Assembly (NCBI GenBank): GCA_021298655.1
Contig: JAJTFK010000003.1
Coordinates: forward strand, 9,966-73,965
Reading direction: 5' to 3'
Source of the DNA: Cryomorphaceae bacterium
GTDB lineage: Bacteria; Bacteroidota; Bacteroidia; Flavobacteriales; Schleiferiaceae
Length of the DNA stretch: 64,000 nt
Below the pieces are notes generated by a model. That model saw only the letters and a list, made by a program, of their open reading frames with translations, was not told the DNA's origin and ran no database searches. Below, piece by piece: positions 6,137-56,435 of the stretch. The position numbers and the translations under genes were made by a program. Each line of letters starts with the position of its first letter. Positions within the stretch are counted from its first letter, which is position 1.

Positions 6137-7135
6137 TTACCTGGTTAAGGTCGGAACTTCGTCGGAATAAATAATGCGCGACCCCTCGAAATCCCACTGG
6201 AATGGAACGGGGCGAAGGTCGCTTAGGGCGGCATCGAGCGCGGCGTGGTCCTCGGGGCGCACCACAAACAGCATAAACCCGCCTCCGCCGGCCCCGAGAA
6301 GCTTGCCGCCTAAGGCGCCAGCTTCGAGTCCGCGTCGGTAGGCATCCTGAATTCCCCGGTCGCTAATTCCGCTGGCCAGGCTTTGCTTGAGCAACCAGTT
6401 TTCGTGCATCAGGCGTCCGCACTCGCGCCAGTTGCTCTGACTCAGGGCCGTGGCGAGCGGATCCACGAGGTGTACCATGTCGCGAAGGACCTCTTGCTTG
6501 CTGCGCTTGGCGCTTTCGAGGCTTTGCTCGGCCAAAATGGCGGACGCCGAACGCTGGTTGCCCAGGTAGTACAGACGCAGGTGGCTAAGCCAACCTTGGG
6601 GGTCGGGAAGCGAAACAGGGTGTATGCTAACCGATTCGTCGGGGTTGAATCTATAGATGTGGAACCCGCCAAAGGCCGCCGCGTACTGGTCTTGCTTGCC
6701 GATGGGCTCGCCGAGGTCGCCCAGTTCCACGGCACAGGCCTGCTCCGCCAACCAAGACTTGGTGGCCTCGTCGGCGCGGCCCAGGCGCGCCATAAGGTTG
6801 TGCAGGGTGCCCACGGTAAACGACGACGAAGAACCCATTCCCGTTCCCGAAGGGACGTCGGCGATGGAGCTGATTTCAAGACCCGTACCCATTTTTAAAC
6901 GGGTTAAAATGGCCCGGAGCAGGGGGTGTTGCAGTTCGGCCACGCTGGATACGGTCTCCGTACTGGAATACTTGGTTCGGATTTGAGCCACCTCAAAGAA
7001 GTCGTGGCTGCTAACGTACAGGTACTTAGCTATGGTACTCGAAAGCACTGCGCCGCCGTGCTCGCGGTAGTAGGCCGGAAGGTCGGAACCTCCGCCGACG
7101 TAGGAGATGCGAAAGGGCGTGCGGCTGATGATCAT
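6137..7135 (-). CDS. hddA: GHMP kinase, D-glycero-alpha-D-manno-heptose 7-phosphate kinase type
   Basis: This 332-residue GHMP-family kinase is expected to phosphorylate C1 of heptose 7-phosphate. The ATP-binding glycine/serine loop is PSGTGMGSSSS at residues 95-105. The N-terminal RTPFRISYVGGGSDLPAYY and the late GGKLLGAGGGGFMLF motif are typical of the HddA/FucK-like group that acts on sugar 7-phosphates or fucose. Its ATG overlaps the TGA of the upstream nucleotidyltransferase-phosphatase (ATGA, 7132-7135). The neighbours make heptose 7-phosphate the most likely substrate. The alpha-anomer route (HddA) is inferred from its GHMP fold, since the beta route uses an unrelated PfkB-type kinase. 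Confidence 0.87.
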   Translation of the reverse strand: MIISRTPFRISYVGGGSDLPAYYREHGGAVLSSTIAKYLYVSSHDFFEVAQIRTKYSSTETVSSVAELQHPLLRAILTRLKMGTGLEISSIADVPSGTGMGSSSSFTVGTLHNLMARLGRADEATKSWLAEQACAVELGDLGEPIGKQDQYAAAFGGFHIYRFNPDESVSIHPVSLPDPQGWLSHLRLYYLGNQRSASAILAEQSLESAKRSKQEVLRDMVHLVDPLATALSQSNWRECGRLMHENWLLKQSLASGISDRGIQDAYRRGLEAGALGGKLLGAGGGGFMLFVVRPEDHAALDAALSDLRPVPFQWDFEGSRIIYSDEVPTLTR

Positions 7136-15158: not shown

Positions 15159-17051
15159 TTAAACCAAGCGTTCCAGGGAACGGTTCACAAAGGCCGTCAA
15201 ACGCTCACCGGTCAGCAATCCTTGCTGAAGGAGCGCCAGGTCCTTGGCCTGTAGAACGAGCTGCTCGCGCTCGGCGGGCTCTTCGGCCTTCAGGATCTTG
15301 CCGGCCAGCGCGTGGTTGCCGTTCACCACCACGTCGTAGTGGTCCGGGAAGTCGCCCATTCCCATGAATCCGCCGCCGCCCGTGGCGCTCATTTCCTTCA
15401 TGCGGCGCATGTACTCGGGCATCACGACCATCATGGGCACGTCGTCGCTCGCGAGGGCTTCGACGCGGACGCTGTAGTTTTTGTCGTTGATGGCGCCCTC
15501 CACATAGCCTTTCAGGCTTTCTTTTTCGGAATCGGTCAGCAGGTGCGCGCGTTCGCCTTCCTTAGGAATCAGCTTGTCGAGCATGTCGCTGTCGACGCGG
15601 GCAAAGCGCACTTTTTCTTTGGCGCCTTCGATCTTTTGAATCCAGTGACCGGCGATGGGCGAATCCAGCACGACCACGTCGTAGCCCTCGGCCTTGGCCT
15701 TTTGAATGTAGCTGTGCTGGGCGTCCACGTTCGAGGCGTAGAGCACCACACGGGTTCCCTCTTTGTCGGTCTGCAGGGCGCTGATCTTTTCGAGGTACTC
15801 GTCGACGGTGTAGGTCGTCTCGTCCACGGCGCTGCGCAGCAGGCTGAACTTTTGGGCGCGCTCAAAGAACTTGTCGTCGGTCACCATGCCGTACTCGATG
15901 ATGACGGCGATGTCCTTGAACTTCTGCTCGAAGTCGGCGCGGTCCGCCTTGAACATTTCTTCGAGCTTGTCGGCGACCTTTTTGGTGATGTGGCCGCTGA
16001 TCTTTTTGACGTTGCCGTCGGCCTGCAGGTAGCTGCGCGACACGTTGAGCGGAATGTCCTTGGAGTCAATCACCCCGTGGAGCAGCATCAAAAAGTCCGG
16101 AACGATGCCCTCGACGTTGTCGGTGACAAAGACCTGGGACTGGTAGAGCTGGATTTTGTTCTTGTTCAGCTCCATGTTGGGCTTCACCTTCGGGAAGAAC
16201 AGGATTCCGGTTAAGTCAAAGGGGTAGTCCACGTTCATGTGGATGTGGAACAGCGGTTCCTCAAACGTGTAGGGGTAGAGGGCCTTGTAAAACGCCTTGT
16301 AGTCCTCGTCGGTCAGCTCGCTCGGCTTTTTGGTCCACGCGGGGCTGTCGGGGTTGATGAGGTTGGGCACCTTTTTGGTTTCCCACTTGGCCTCTTCGCC
16401 TTCGGGGGCGGAATTATAGCGCTCGTCCTTCTCGCCGCACACAATGGGCACGCTCATGAACCGGGCGTACTTCTTGAGCAGTTCGTTGATTTTGAATTCC
16501 TCGAGGAATTCCTCGGACTCGCCGTCAATGTGGAGGACGATGTCGGTTCCGCGGTCCTTCTTTTTCTTGGTCTCGAGGCGGTATTCGGGCGAGCCGTCGC
16601 AGGACCAGAATGCGCCCTCGGCTTCGCCGGCCTTCCAGCTTCGGGTATGGATTTCGACCTGGCTCGATACCATGAAGCTCGAGTAGAATCCGAGTCCGAA
16701 GTGGCCGATCATCGCGCCCTTGTCGATTTTGCCCTCGTAGGCGTTGACAAATTCCGTGGCGCCCGAGAAGGCCACGTCGTTGATGTACTTGTTGACCTCG
16801 TCCGACGTCATGCCAATGCCGCGGTCGCGGATGGTGATGGTCTTTTTCTTTTTGTCGACGTCGACGTGAATCGTCAGATCGCCGAGCTCACCGCTGAATT
16901 CACCCAAGTTACTTAGGGTCTTGAGCTTGTTGGTGGCGTCTACGGCGTTTGAAATCAGTTCGCGCAAAAAGATTTCGTGGTCGCTGTAGAGAAACTTCTT
17001 GATGACCGGAAAGATGTTGTCGGCCGATACGTTGATTTTACCCGTTGCCAT
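15159..17051 (-). CDS. htpG: Molecular chaperone HtpG (Hsp90)
   Basis: A 630-residue bacterial Hsp90. GHKL ATPase motifs are present: LRELISNAVDATNK with the catalytic Glu and Asn (residues 29-42), DRGIGMTSDEV, and GHFGLGFYSSFMV. The middle-domain SRSYLQAD and the GGGGFMGMG glycine segment near the C-terminus also fit. The ELISNAVDA variant has Val where many family members have Ser, but the ATP-contacting residues are kept. It acts as a cytoplasmic ATP-dependent folding factor. No -7 element is seen near its start, so either a longer leader or a stress-specific promoter is possible. It diverges from crtA. Confidence 0.97.
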   Translation of the reverse strand: MATGKINVSADNIFPVIKKFLYSDHEIFLRELISNAVDATNKLKTLSNLGEFSGELGDLTIHVDVDKKKKTITIRDRGIGMTSDEVNKYINDVAFSGATEFVNAYEGKIDKGAMIGHFGLGFYSSFMVSSQVEIHTRSWKAGEAEGAFWSCDGSPEYRLETKKKKDRGTDIVLHIDGESEEFLEEFKINELLKKYARFMSVPIVCGEKDERYNSAPEGEEAKWETKKVPNLINPDSPAWTKKPSELTDEDYKAFYKALYPYTFEEPLFHIHMNVDYPFDLTGILFFPKVKPNMELNKNKIQLYQSQVFVTDNVEGIVPDFLMLLHGVIDSKDIPLNVSRSYLQADGNVKKISGHITKKVADKLEEMFKADRADFEQKFKDIAVIIEYGMVTDDKFFERAQKFSLLRSAVDETTYTVDEYLEKISALQTDKEGTRVVLYASNVDAQHSYIQKAKAEGYDVVVLDSPIAGHWIQKIEGAKEKVRFARVDSDMLDKLIPKEGERAHLLTDSEKESLKGYVEGAINDKNYSVRVEALASDDVPMMVVMPEYMRRMKEMSATGGGGFMGMGDFPDHYDVVVNGNHALAGKILKAEEPAEREQLVLQAKDLALLQQGLLTGERLTAFVNRSLERLV

Positions 17052-17106
17052 AGTTTTTATTCGTTTAGTGGTGCTCCCTGCGGAACAAGGCGTGTGCCAC
17101 GGGGGT

Positions 17107-17114
17107 TAACTTAG
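17107..17114 (+). promoter_or_regulatory. Possible -7 element of the crtA-alkB pair
   Basis: TAACTTAG matches TAnnTTTG at seven positions and ends four bases before the GTG at 17119. It is similar to the TACTTTAG site before ribD. It favours the GTG over the ATG at 17131 as start. Confidence 0.4.
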
Positions 17115-17118
17115 TGCA

Positions 17119-17853
17119 GTGACTGACAAAATGGCAAATCCTCCCTTTATTACCGTTCGGTTTTTGCGTTGGCAGGGCCGCAACGCCCATTGGCAGGGCC
17201 GCAACGCCCAGTGGCGGGCCTTCGGCGCCCAGGGTTTTGCCCTTCGCCAGCCTTGGTCGGCCCCCGGATTGCGCTTTGGCAAGCAGCTTGGCAGCGGAGC
17301 CGGCGGGGGGTTCTCCATTTGGCCGGACTTCAGCACCTACGCCTGGTTCGGCGTCTGGGACACGGCCGCGGACGCAGCAGCGTTTTTTGCGACGGACGCC
17401 CGCTGGGCAGAATGGCGCGCCTCAGCCCACGAAGAATGGGGCTGGGACGCTGAGCCCGTGCGCGGCCACGGAAGCTGGGACGGCGTGCACCTGCTCGAAG
17501 GGGCCGCGCTGGCCGAGTTGGCGCCCGACGACGAGGTGGCGGTACTCACCCGAGCCCGCATTAAATGGAGTCAAGCCCTGCGCTTTTGGTGGAACGTACC
17601 CGGCGCCAGCCGCCACCTGGACCGGTTGCCGGACCTCCTGTACCGCAAAGGAGTGGGGGAGCTGCCGTTGGTGGAACAGGCCACGTTAAGTGTTTGGCGC
17701 AGTGCCGAAGCGCTCGACGCCTTTGCGTACCGAAGTCGGGAGCACGCGCCCATGGTTCGAAAGACCCGGGTCTACGCTTGGTACAGCGAAGAAATGTTCC
17801 TGAGGATGAAGGTCTTGAATCGTTGGGATGCGCGCCCTATCTTGGGTGCATGA
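17119..17853 (+). CDS. CrtA-like (spheroidene) monooxygenase family protein
   Basis: A 244-residue protein resembling CrtA, the heme-containing carotenoid ketolase family: SAPGLRFGKQLGSGAGGGFSIWPDFSTYAWFGVWDT, then HLLEGAAL, VAVLTRARI and a final RKTRVYAWYSEEMF. It could oxygenate a carotenoid or another lipid, but no other carotenoid gene is in the window. Near the N-terminus a seven-residue unit (WQGRNAH / WQGRNAQ) is duplicated in frame. Its TGA overlaps the alkB ATG (ATGA, 17850-17853), so translation of the two is probably coupled. The start is GTG 17119 or ATG 17131. I prefer the GTG because of the -7 element four bases before it. Confidence 0.72.
   Translation: MTDKMANPPFITVRFLRWQGRNAHWQGRNAQWRAFGAQGFALRQPWSAPGLRFGKQLGSGAGGGFSIWPDFSTYAWFGVWDTAADAAAFFATDARWAEWRASAHEEWGWDAEPVRGHGSWDGVHLLEGAALAELAPDDEVAVLTRARIKWSQALRFWWNVPGASRHLDRLPDLLYRKGVGELPLVEQATLSVWRSAEALDAFAYRSREHAPMVRKTRVYAWYSEEMFLRMKVLNRWDARPILGA
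17170..17211 (+). repeat. Two tandem 21-base units within crtA, with a third degenerate copy
   Basis: Bases 17170-17190 and 17191-17211 differ only at their last base and encode WQGRNAH and WQGRNAQ. A weak third unit follows at 17212 (WRAFGAQ). The period of 21 bases keeps the frame, so this looks like a recent in-frame duplication. Confidence 0.9.
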
Positions 17854-18851
17854 CGGGACTTCGTTACCTGCTTTCGCTGCTTTTGCCGGCCTCGATTTAC
17901 GCGGGCTTGCTTTCGCAGGGCTTCTGGTCTTTTGCGGCCTTGGGATTTGCGTTTGGCCTGGTGCCCGTTCTCGAGTCGGTGTTGCCTGCTTTTTCGGCGA
18001 ATCTGAGCGAGGCCCAGCGGGCCGAGCGGTTAAGTCAACCTTGGTACGACCTGCTGGTTTTGGCTCAGATTCCGCTCCACCTCGGCGCCATTGGCCTCTT
18101 TCTGCGCGTCGTTCCCGAAGACCGAGCTACGGGTGACCTCCTGTCCTTGGTGGGCCACATTTCGGCCCTCGGCGTTTCGTGCGGATCGTTAGCGATAAAC
18201 GTCGCCCACGAACTAGGGCACCGCCCCAACGCCACCTACCAGCGGCTGGCCCAGGGACTGCTGGTCACCACGCTCTACGGACAGTTTTTTATCGACCACA
18301 ACCTCGGGCACCACAAGAACGTGGCCACTCCCGAAGATGCCTCAACCGCCCGGTACGGTGAAGTGCTGTACGCGTTTTGGCTGCGAAGCATTGCGGGCGT
18401 CTGGCGCACGGCATGGCGCTTAAAGCCCGGACTCATGGCCAGCTTATTCGCGCTCGAACTGACCTACCTGGCCGCGGTGTTCGTTTGGGCGCCGTCCGCG
18501 CTGTTGCCCTTGCTGCTGGCCGCGCTCATGGGTGTCGTGCTGCTCGAAACCGTGAACTACATCGAGCACTACGGGCTGCTGCGCCAAAAAGTCAGCGTCC
18601 ACCGCTACGAAAACGCGCAGCCGGAACATTCTTGGAACTCCAACCACCCGCTCGGGAGGTTTATGCTCTTTGAGTTGACCCGGCATTCCGACCACCACGC
18701 GCATCCCTACAAGCCCTATCCGGTGCTCGACCACTTCGACGAAGCGCCCCAAATGCCGGCCGGTTACCCGGCCATGATGGTGCTGGCTGCGCTGCCGCCG
18801 CTGTGGTTCCGTGTAATGAATCCGCGGTTAAAACCAGTAACTAGCAACTAG
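17850..18851 (+). CDS. alkB: AlkB-type alkane/fatty-acyl membrane hydroxylase
   Basis: A 333-residue integral membrane di-iron hydroxylase. All the AlkB histidine boxes are present: HELGHR (His120, His124), DHNLGHHKNVAT (His150, His154, His155), NYIEHYGL (residues 236-243) and RHSDHHAH (His279, His282, His283). Around these are about six hydrophobic segments. AlkB hydroxylates terminal carbons of medium-chain alkanes or related lipids and needs rubredoxin and a reductase, neither of which is next to it. The ATG overlaps the stop of the CrtA-like gene, so two lipid-oxygenating enzymes are co-translated. The gene is shorter than Pseudomonas AlkB (about 400 residues) but near the usual Bacteroidota size. 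Confidence 0.9.
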   Translation: MTGLRYLLSLLLPASIYAGLLSQGFWSFAALGFAFGLVPVLESVLPAFSANLSEAQRAERLSQPWYDLLVLAQIPLHLGAIGLFLRVVPEDRATGDLLSLVGHISALGVSCGSLAINVAHELGHRPNATYQRLAQGLLVTTLYGQFFIDHNLGHHKNVATPEDASTARYGEVLYAFWLRSIAGVWRTAWRLKPGLMASLFALELTYLAAVFVWAPSALLPLLLAALMGVVLLETVNYIEHYGLLRQKVSVHRYENAQPEHSWNSNHPLGRFMLFELTRHSDHHAHPYKPYPVLDHFDEAPQMPAGYPAMMVLAALPPLWFRVMNPRLKPVTSN

Positions 18852-18858
18852 TAGCTGG

Positions 18859-19560
18859 CTAGAATGGGTTCGTCGCCCAGACGCCCAGTTCGGGGATGAA
18901 CCCTCGGTCGTCCATCGCCAGCGCACTCACCATGGCGTGGGCGAGTTCTTCAGGACGCAGCATGTTGTCTTTAAGCGGCTTCTCTTCGCGGCTTTCGACG
19001 TTGAATGCGGTCGGCACGGCCGAGGGATTGACGAGCATCACCCGAATGTTGAAGGGGCGAAGCTCGTCGCGCCAGCACTCGGTCATGCCGCGCACCGCAA
19101 ACTTGGATGCCGCGTAGACCGTTCCGTTTTTGAAGCCGCGCACGCCCGCACTCGAGGCGATGTTGATGATGTTGCCCTTGTTCTGGGCTTTCATTCGCTT
19201 GGCGGCTTCGCGGCCGACCAAGGCCGCTCCAAATACGTTGGTGTGAAAAATGGTTTCGAAATCGGACCACGACACCTCGTCTACGGGTCCAAAAAAGCCG
19301 ATTCCGGCGTTGTTGATGAGCACGTCCAGGCCGCCCCATTCGCGGTCGATCGCCGCGTACATCGCCAGGATGTCTTGCTCTTTGCTGGCGTCGTAGGGCA
19401 GGGCCCAGGCTCCGAGCTCACGGGCAACGCGCTCGAGTTTGCTGCGGTCGCGTCCGGTTATGGCAACCCGGGCACCGCGGGCAACAAGCAGTTCGGCGGT
19501 GGCTTTTCCGAGGCCAGATGAGCCTCCGGTGATCAAAACGCGGGCGTTGGGGAATTCCAT
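18859..19560 (-). CDS. Short-chain dehydrogenase/reductase
   Basis: A 233-residue classical SDR. The NAD(P)-binding TGGSSGLGKAT is near residues 11-21, NNAGIG is near residue 87, a serine lies in the INIASSAG strand, and the catalytic YAASK tetrad part follows. It probably reduces or oxidises a small carbonyl or alcohol with NAD(P)H. The substrate cannot be assigned: SDR subfamilies of this form (3-ketoacyl reductase-like) are very broad. It converges with alkB, with only seven bases between the two stops and no terminator. It is not in an obvious operon. Confidence 0.88.
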   Translation of the reverse strand: MEFPNARVLITGGSSGLGKATAELLVARGARVAITGRDRSKLERVARELGAWALPYDASKEQDILAMYAAIDREWGGLDVLINNAGIGFFGPVDEVSWSDFETIFHTNVFGAALVGREAAKRMKAQNKGNIINIASSAGVRGFKNGTVYAASKFAVRGMTECWRDELRPFNIRVMLVNPSAVPTAFNVESREEKPLKDNMLRPEELAHAMVSALAMDDRGFIPELGVWATNPF

Positions 19561-32622: not shown

Positions 32623-33203
32623 CCTGTATACCATTGGGAAGCCAAATGTAGCGAAATACCGAGGCACAGCGCACCCAGCGCCAGCGCAAAATCTTTGGGG
32701 CTAAACCGCCGCGCCGAGGCTCCTGCGCGGAGCAGAAACACGCCCGCCACCACGGCAAGCTGCCCTACCTCAACACCCAAGGCAAACCAGCCCCACGAAG
32801 CCCAAAGGGCCCCGCGGTCGCTCGGCAAGAGCGGGGCGAGGTCTTTGGCAAAAGCGAGCCCATGGACCACACCAAAAAGCGCAGCCACGGCCAGTTCGGC
32901 ACGAAGCCAGCTGCGGGCTGGCGGCACCGTTCCCTTGAGCCAAACGACGCGGGCCGAGGTGAAAACTAACGTGGCGAGCACGGCACCTTCGACGGCCCGT
33001 TCCGGCAGCGGAATCTGAAGGGCGACTTGACTGGCCATGGCCGCCGTATGGCCCACGGCAAACGCGGTCAGGGCTCCGAACCAGGCCTTCGCATCCTTGG
33101 GTGCGAACGGCGCAACGAGTGCCGCTACAAAGAGCAGGTGGTCCCAAGCTTGGGGATCGAGAATGTGAAACATGCCAAGCTCGGCAAAGGGCGGAACGGT
33201 CAT
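32619..33203 (-). CDS. HupE/UreJ-family membrane protein
   Basis: A 194-residue membrane protein with about six hydrophobic segments and the HupE/UreJ core: FHILDPQAWDHLLFVAALV, AFAVGHTAAM, and a second histidine-containing helix VVHGLAFAKDL. HupE proteins are nickel or cobalt permeases with conserved His/Asp near the N-terminus, which HxxDxxDH-like positions here resemble only partly (DPQAWDH). The metal is unknown. It overlaps DUF6702 (ATGA, 33200-33203) and the peptidase (ATGA, 32619-32622), so all three are translationally coupled. Confidence 0.82.
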   Translation of the reverse strand: MTVPPFAELGMFHILDPQAWDHLLFVAALVAPFAPKDAKAWFGALTAFAVGHTAAMASQVALQIPLPERAVEGAVLATLVFTSARVVWLKGTVPPARSWLRAELAVAALFGVVHGLAFAKDLAPLLPSDRGALWASWGWFALGVEVGQLAVVAGVFLLRAGASARRFSPKDFALALGALCLGISLHLASQWYTG

Positions 33204-55920: not shown

Positions 55921-56435
55921 CCGCCCCGCTGCAGCAGCGTGCTTGGCGCAAGGCCGCCGACGACCGACCGACCACCTTGGCATGGCCTGGCTGGGAAAAG
56001 GCACGCCGCATCGGCATCGTTTTTGACGCCCGAGCCGAAGAGGGCTACCTGGAATCCCTGCGTCAAGTGGTTTCGGCCCTCCAAGGGCAGCAGCGCGCCG
56101 TCGCCCTCATTGGGTGGACCGGCGAAATGCGCCCCAAAAACGCCCTGTATTCGGGCCGTCAGCTCATTTTTACCGACGACTTCGCATGGAACGGCGGGGT
56201 TCAAGGGGGCAACGCGCTTGAATTCATGCAAAGCGAATTTGACCTGGTCGTGGCCCTTCACCGGAGTGAAGACAGCCCCATTGACTACCTCGTGGCGCGG
56301 ACTCCGGCGGGCCTCCGCGTGAGCTTGACCGGGGCGAACGACTTTTACGACGTGCGCTACCACAGCGCCGACCGACTTCCTATGGACTACTTTCGCGCAT
56401 TGAGCGCTTGGCTCGCTAAAATCCCTTCCCGATGA
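55899..56435 (+). CDS. DUF6913 family protein
   Basis: A 178-residue cytoplasmic protein with no signal peptide: RRIGIVFDARAEEGYLESL, LIFTDDFAWNG, and DLVVALHRSEDSPIDYLVARTPAGLRV are the recognisable parts. I recognise this as the DUF6913 protein that lies between ligA and dapA in many Bacteroidota; its function is unknown. It overlaps ligA by 22 bases in another frame, and its stop overlaps the dapA ATG (ATGA, 56432-56435), so it is translationally coupled to both. Confidence 0.78.
   Translation: MDWLYRLTAPLQQRAWRKAADDRPTTLAWPGWEKARRIGIVFDARAEEGYLESLRQVVSALQGQQRAVALIGWTGEMRPKNALYSGRQLIFTDDFAWNGGVQGGNALEFMQSEFDLVVALHRSEDSPIDYLVARTPAGLRVSLTGANDFYDVRYHSADRLPMDYFRALSAWLAKIPSR

Follow-up and report, generated by a model that had tools for sequence, protein, structure and literature searches.

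A conserved pair of crtA-like and alkB-like genes in a Schleiferiaceae-type genus, most likely a lineage-specific arrangement of two known oxygenases

Gene content and structure of the locus

The stretch of DNA analysed (64,000 nucleotides, hereafter the window; G000:C14:9966-73965) belongs to a 1.6-Mb genome (G000) of a marine bacterium in a Schleiferiaceae-type genus, designated here g1. Among its named relatives are Cryomorphaceae bacterium BACL7, Flavobacteriales UBA972 and several 'Schleiferiaceae bacterium' MAGs. It contains candidate genes for two oxygenases, crtA and alkB, lying between two neighbours transcribed from the opposite strand (Table 1). The locus was compared with 61 genomes of the family, 22 of them from g1, and with 395 genomes across the phylum; rubredoxin was searched for in 38 family genomes.

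Table 1. Features of the crtA-alkB locus (coordinates are positions in the window)
Feature	Position	Strand	Basis
crtA-like gene (predicted carotenoid 2-hydroxylase of CrtA-OH type)	17131..17853	+	NF045923; Met shared with relatives; structure model; homologues in crt clusters
alkB-like gene (integral-membrane di-iron hydroxylase)	17850..18851	+	Pfam FA_desaturase; AlkB structures 8f6t/8sbb; nine His ligands; Ala34
ATGA stop/start overlap of crtA and alkB	17850..17853	+	Sequence; spacing
htpG-crtA intergenic region (short, divergent)	17052..17130	.	Short blocks kept across the genus
21-bp tandem duplication inside crtA	17169..17220	+	Alignment with relatives
htpG (Hsp90), divergent upstream neighbour, outside the pair	15159..17051	-	Pfam; neighbour kept in the genus
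SDR-family dehydrogenase, convergent downstream neighbour, outside the pair	18859..19560	-	Pfam adh_short

Both reading frames are open and intact. The stop codon of crtA (TGA, 17851-17853) overlaps the start codon of alkB (ATG, 17850-17852), so that the ATGA overlap reported in the original prediction is real; as a notable feature it carries less weight, since at least four other co-directional 4-bp overlaps occur in the window (e.g., 2913-2916, 7132-7135, 33200-33203, and 56432-56435). Translation of crtA from ATG 17131 yields 240 amino acids; an alternative upstream start, GTG 17119, is less likely because the relatives share the methionine at ATG 17131. The alkB gene encodes 333 amino acids with no fused rubredoxin. 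Between G000 and the relative G010, the differences at codon positions 1, 2 and 3 are 0.07, 0.04 and 0.37 in crtA and 0.14, 0.05 and 0.41 in alkB; the excess at third positions indicates that both genes are under purifying selection. The tandem duplication near the N-terminus of CrtA, amounting to about 2.5 copies and adding seven residues (RWQGRNAH-WQGRNAQW), was found in G000 alone and is absent from the relatives.

The likeliest place for a promoter is the htpG-crtA intergenic region, upstream of both genes, which are probably co-transcribed. Short blocks in this region, AACAAG...TGCCA and ACTGACAAA, are kept across the genus. An operator motif common to crtA and the other crt genes was considered and rejected, as in the stretches read ACTGACAAA occurred upstream of crtA only.

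Identity of CrtA

Residues 34-235 of 244 in the crtA product match the NCBIfam model for spheroidene monooxygenase CrtA, NF045923 (E 8e-42), in agreement with the CrtA-like assignment made earlier from the sequence. The score of 143 bits is below the equivalog cut-off of 300 bits, and the protein was not filed as the Rhodobacter ketolase. It is 34-43% identical to its homologues, several of which are encoded inside crt clusters. A sequence search against solved structures returned nothing useful for CrtA; in its AlphaFold model (pLDDT 91) the protein folds as a tandem ferredoxin-like alpha+beta barrel. Foldseek matched the model to monooxygenases of that fold, to HmoB, and to heme aldoxime dehydratase, the last with a TM of up to 0.58. 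A candidate heme ligand is His205, which does not vary across 50 sequences. CrtA enzymes require O2, reduced ferredoxin and a 5-coordinate heme (PMC10604819).

Relative to the Rhodobacter CrtA described by NF045923, the protein shows near whole-length homology and a predicted alpha+beta barrel, possibly of the heme type, but it scores far below the cut-off and comes from another phylum; according to the literature, the spheroidene ketolase was itself derived from a Bacteroidetes hydroxylase (PMC10604819). Closer counterparts are the CrtA-OH enzymes of Flavobacterium P99-3 and Nonlabens spongiae (Rahlert 2009; PMC11855829), which share with it the protein family, the phylum and a pathway comprising CrtB, CrtI, CruF, CrtZ and a lycopene cyclase. 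The Nonlabens crtA-OH gene, located inside a crt cluster, encodes an enzyme turning 1'-hydroxytorulene into deoxymyxol (PMC11855829). In contrast to these systems, crtA of the window lies outside any crt cluster with alkB behind it, the cyclase belongs to the CrtYcd type, and the protein has diverged from its Flavobacteriaceae homologue (L097) to 34% identity. Its likeliest identity is the known carotenoid 2-hydroxylase CrtA-OH.

Carotenoid biosynthesis genes in the genome

The original prediction had remarked on the absence of carotenoid synthesis genes near the pair, which is true of the neighbourhood; the pathway is, however, encoded elsewhere in the genome. A cluster with the order ECF sigma factor-crtI-crtB-idi is located 4 kb outside the window, within the same contig, and its CrtI matches the bifunctional CrtID model NF058655 (702 bits, cut-off 640). 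The genome also contains cruF, and crtZ immediately upstream of a two-domain crtYcd cyclase gene. The possibility that carotenoid genes are missing from the genome was thus rejected, as crtB, crtI, idi, cruF, crtZ, and crtYcd were all found, and the enzymes forming a substrate for CrtA (CrtB, CrtI/D, the cyclase, and CruF) are accompanied by CrtZ. Judged by gene content, this set appears to be essentially the myxol pathway, and by the logic of the pathway the product of CrtA would be a 2'-hydroxylated monocyclic xanthophyll, myxol or a compound near it. Homologues of crtA adjoin crtD-cruF-crtY/crtZ in Owenweeksia sp. of the same family, as well as in Flavobacterium, Psychroflexus, Saprospiraceae, and Ekhidna, and these crt clusters contain no alkB. 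CrtA has a coherent role in a dispersed carotenoid pathway, and the lack of crt genes beside it does not imply a new substrate.

The genome encodes a microbial rhodopsin (L293:2891-3604); the rhodopsin frame is longer in a g1 subclade that lacks alkB (see below). Two members of that subclade, G013 and G016, encode a 660-aa protein in which a CrtY-type lycopene cyclase is fused to a Blh beta-carotene 15,15'-dioxygenase (L133:5574-7556 and L139:4735-6717, respectively) and which could yield retinal straight from lycopene. Long frames over the cyclase were also seen in G015 and in G073 (another family). An inverse association within the genus between the PF05834 cyclase and AlkB was rejected, since the single subclade amounts to one event and all the genomes possess CrtYcd.

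Identity, substrate length, and electron donor of AlkB

AlkB aligns over nearly its whole length with the solved AlkB structures 8f6t (E 8e-63) and 8sbb (E 1e-56), which bears out the earlier AlkB-type assignment, and all nine histidine ligands, invariant in 62 AlkBs, are kept. Its Ala34 aligns with Trp62 of FtAlkB, for which 8sbb was taken on the strength of its numbering, which matches the published W62 and L141. Trp62 restricts chain length, and small residues in its place are associated with alkanes of at least 12 carbons (PMC10110569); Ala34 thus predicts long-chain substrates (C12 or longer).

The original prediction had noted no rubredoxin nearby, and the search extended this: the rubredoxin domain (PF00301) was absent from all 38 family genomes in the search, G000 among them, and was recovered in the control genomes. 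The gene is therefore not part of a classical rubredoxin-linked alk system. AlkB of the window resembles the solved enzymes and that of P. putida GPo1 in its histidine ligands and near whole-length homology, but differs from them in having no rubredoxin, fused or separate, in carrying Ala for Trp, and in lying outside an alk operon. A close parallel by description is AlkB of another member of the Bacteroidetes, Dokdonia, which is reported to assimilate hexadecane with no rubredoxin in its genome; no mention of a crtA neighbour was found there (PMC10654063). The absence of rubredoxin is thus no argument against alkanes.

Three [2Fe-2S] matches were found in G000, one being PaaE by its context and the other two NqrF- and SdhB-like by length and score. 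A Fer2 reductase of PaaE length occurs in 13 of the 14 AlkB-bearing g1 genomes. As a dedicated AlkB reductase PaaE was rejected, since in G000 its gene adjoins paaA/paaC-like genes, which points to phenylacetate metabolism.

Conservation and distribution of the two genes

Within g1, CrtA is present in 19 of the 22 genomes and AlkB in 14, and in all 14 of the latter crtA is followed by alkB. Nine genomes have a gap of -4 nt, and in the other five it ranges from +9 to +45 nt. The adjacency survey proposed in the original prediction thus recovered the pair throughout the AlkB-bearing g1 genomes and also in two genomes of another genus, g9, where the order is fabH-crtA-alkB and the crtA-alkB gap is 64-66 nt; a third g9 genome has fabH-alkB and no crtA. 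The two genes are 9-17 kb apart in genus g15 and about 12 kb apart in g14. In three genera of the family, the gene immediately upstream of crtA encodes a KAS III (fabH, TIGR00747; L083, L084, L093, and L094).

Sequence identity across g1 is 51-59% for CrtA and 54-60% for AlkB, so that the close spacing persists despite strong divergence. In the trees, g1 AlkB forms one clade with subclades resembling those of CrtA, and the pair accordingly looks vertically inherited. The htpG/hut gene order around the pair is likewise broadly kept between the two genera, and, with 4-bp overlaps being common in the window, adjacency alone is modest evidence. The CrtA proteins of Aquirufa and other freshwater Cytophagales cluster with g1 CrtA and not with those of other Cytophagales (L158, L167, and related loci); alkB is not beside crtA in this group, and the pattern looks like horizontal transfer of crtA alone.

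Across the family sample (n=61), 35 genomes carry the two genes together, 12 carry AlkB without CrtA, 6 carry CrtA without AlkB, and 8 lack both. This co-occurrence is above chance (Fisher p 0.049, kinship not corrected for), but one gene occurs without the other in 18 of the 61 genomes, and a test of whether the genes were gained and lost together came out negative on these 12 and 6 exceptions. In a five-species subclade of g1, CrtA is present and alkB was found nowhere in the genome; at the three loci read, htpG-crtA is in the same place, while alkB and the SDR gene are both gone. This subclade lost alkB and retained crtA. Since each gene so often occurs without the other, their substrates are most likely different molecules. 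The fixed ratio and the two steps on one substrate envisaged in the original prediction are not supported by this distribution.

Of the 395 genomes in the phylum sample, 51 encode AlkB, 26 have a strong CrtA match, and 10 have the two together, against 3.4 expected (p 0.0006, kinship not corrected for); adjacent genes were found in G000 only. A literature search yielded no description of the crtA-alkB pair, in line with the earlier impression that it was undescribed, and the one paper found to name both enzymes does so in unrelated passages.

Interpretation of the gene pair

Given the gene identities, intactness, spacing and conservation, the presence of the rest of the carotenoid pathway, the lack of a detectable rubredoxin, and the independent occurrence, all of which are directly established, the best explanation (probability about 0.68) is that two known oxygenases form one short transcription unit and act on different membrane-borne substrates. 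CrtA would be a heme monooxygenase of the CrtA-OH type that uses O2 and low-potential electrons to hydroxylate C-2' at the psi end of a monocyclic 1'-hydroxy carotenoid, a step towards myxol, with the remaining crt genes scattered in the genome. AlkB would be a rubredoxin-independent alkane/alkyl hydroxylase of the Bacteroidota type that oxidizes long chains (C12 or more) at their terminal methyl group, and the adjacency would have arisen, or been retained, in one family. The link is probably the co-expression of two O2- and reductant-dependent membrane enzymes and not a shared pathway. Several observations go against this explanation: the close spacing despite divergence, co-occurrence above chance in both the family and the phylum, the CrtA score below the spheroidene monooxygenase equivalog cut-off, and the gene orders fabH-crtA-alkB in g9 and fabH-crtA in two further genera, a hint that crtA may be connected with lipids.

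The AlkB superfamily includes carotenoid hydroxylases and ketolases, and CrtA and AlkB could in principle oxygenate the same polyene successively, for example at the C-2' and a terminal methyl group of the psi end, so that a new xanthophyll would result. Such a scheme would account for tight co-directional spacing kept over long divergence and for a promoter lying most likely upstream of both genes. It is nevertheless very improbable, given the family genomes with only one of the two genes, including an AlkB-bearing genome (G024) that lacks CrtA and yet has CruF, CrtZ, and CrtYcd, the crtA homologues in crt clusters devoid of alkB, and the close relationship of AlkB to true alkane hydroxylases. 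A shared substrate is, in short, possible but unsupported. Also very improbable is its extended form, in which C-2' and terminal-methyl hydroxylation of one carotenoid, or of a lipid attached to it, would draw on a shared electron donor other than rubredoxin and produce a new xanthophyll, which might be a pigment or antenna particular to this lineage of rhodopsin-bearing marine Schleiferiaceae.

A lipid substrate for both enzymes has been considered too: CrtA would then be no carotenoid enzyme and would oxygenate the fatty-acyl product of the neighbouring KAS III, with AlkB acting on the same lipid. The KAS III does match TIGR00747 above the cut-off, and fabH adjoins crtA and alkB in g9, alkB in the g9 genome without crtA, and crtA in g5 and g11. 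This is extremely improbable, however, as in the genus of the window fabH is not beside crtA, the same CrtA family occurs in carotenoid clusters (once in the same family of bacteria), and G000 encodes the rest of that pathway. Finally, AlkB could serve growth or detoxification, with n-alkanes of biogenic or petroleum origin as its substrates, its place behind crtA being an accident with no functional or regulatory meaning. Schleiferiaceae are reported as abundant alkB carriers, and the gene is regarded there as a hydrocarbon gene (PMC10176705); moreover, other genera carry alkB at different places, 4-bp overlaps are frequent within the window, and the kept htpG/hut order makes a kept adjacency nothing special. 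A pure accident is still unlikely, as the genes are co-directional and within 45 nt of each other in every AlkB-bearing g1 genome and lie at the distances given above in a third and a fourth genus, g15 and g14.

Under the preferred reading, two oxygenases with different substrates, the dispersed carotenoid pathway of a small genome accounts for the apparently orphan CrtA beside AlkB. For this whole family of aquatic bacteria, in which long-chain-type AlkB is common and rubredoxin undetectable in the 38 genomes searched, the electron donor of AlkB becomes a useful question. The locus is also a warning that gene overlap should not be read as a shared substrate: two known enzymes are most likely arranged here in a way specific to the lineage, and are probably co-transcribed; the arrangement is new, and the parts are ordinary.
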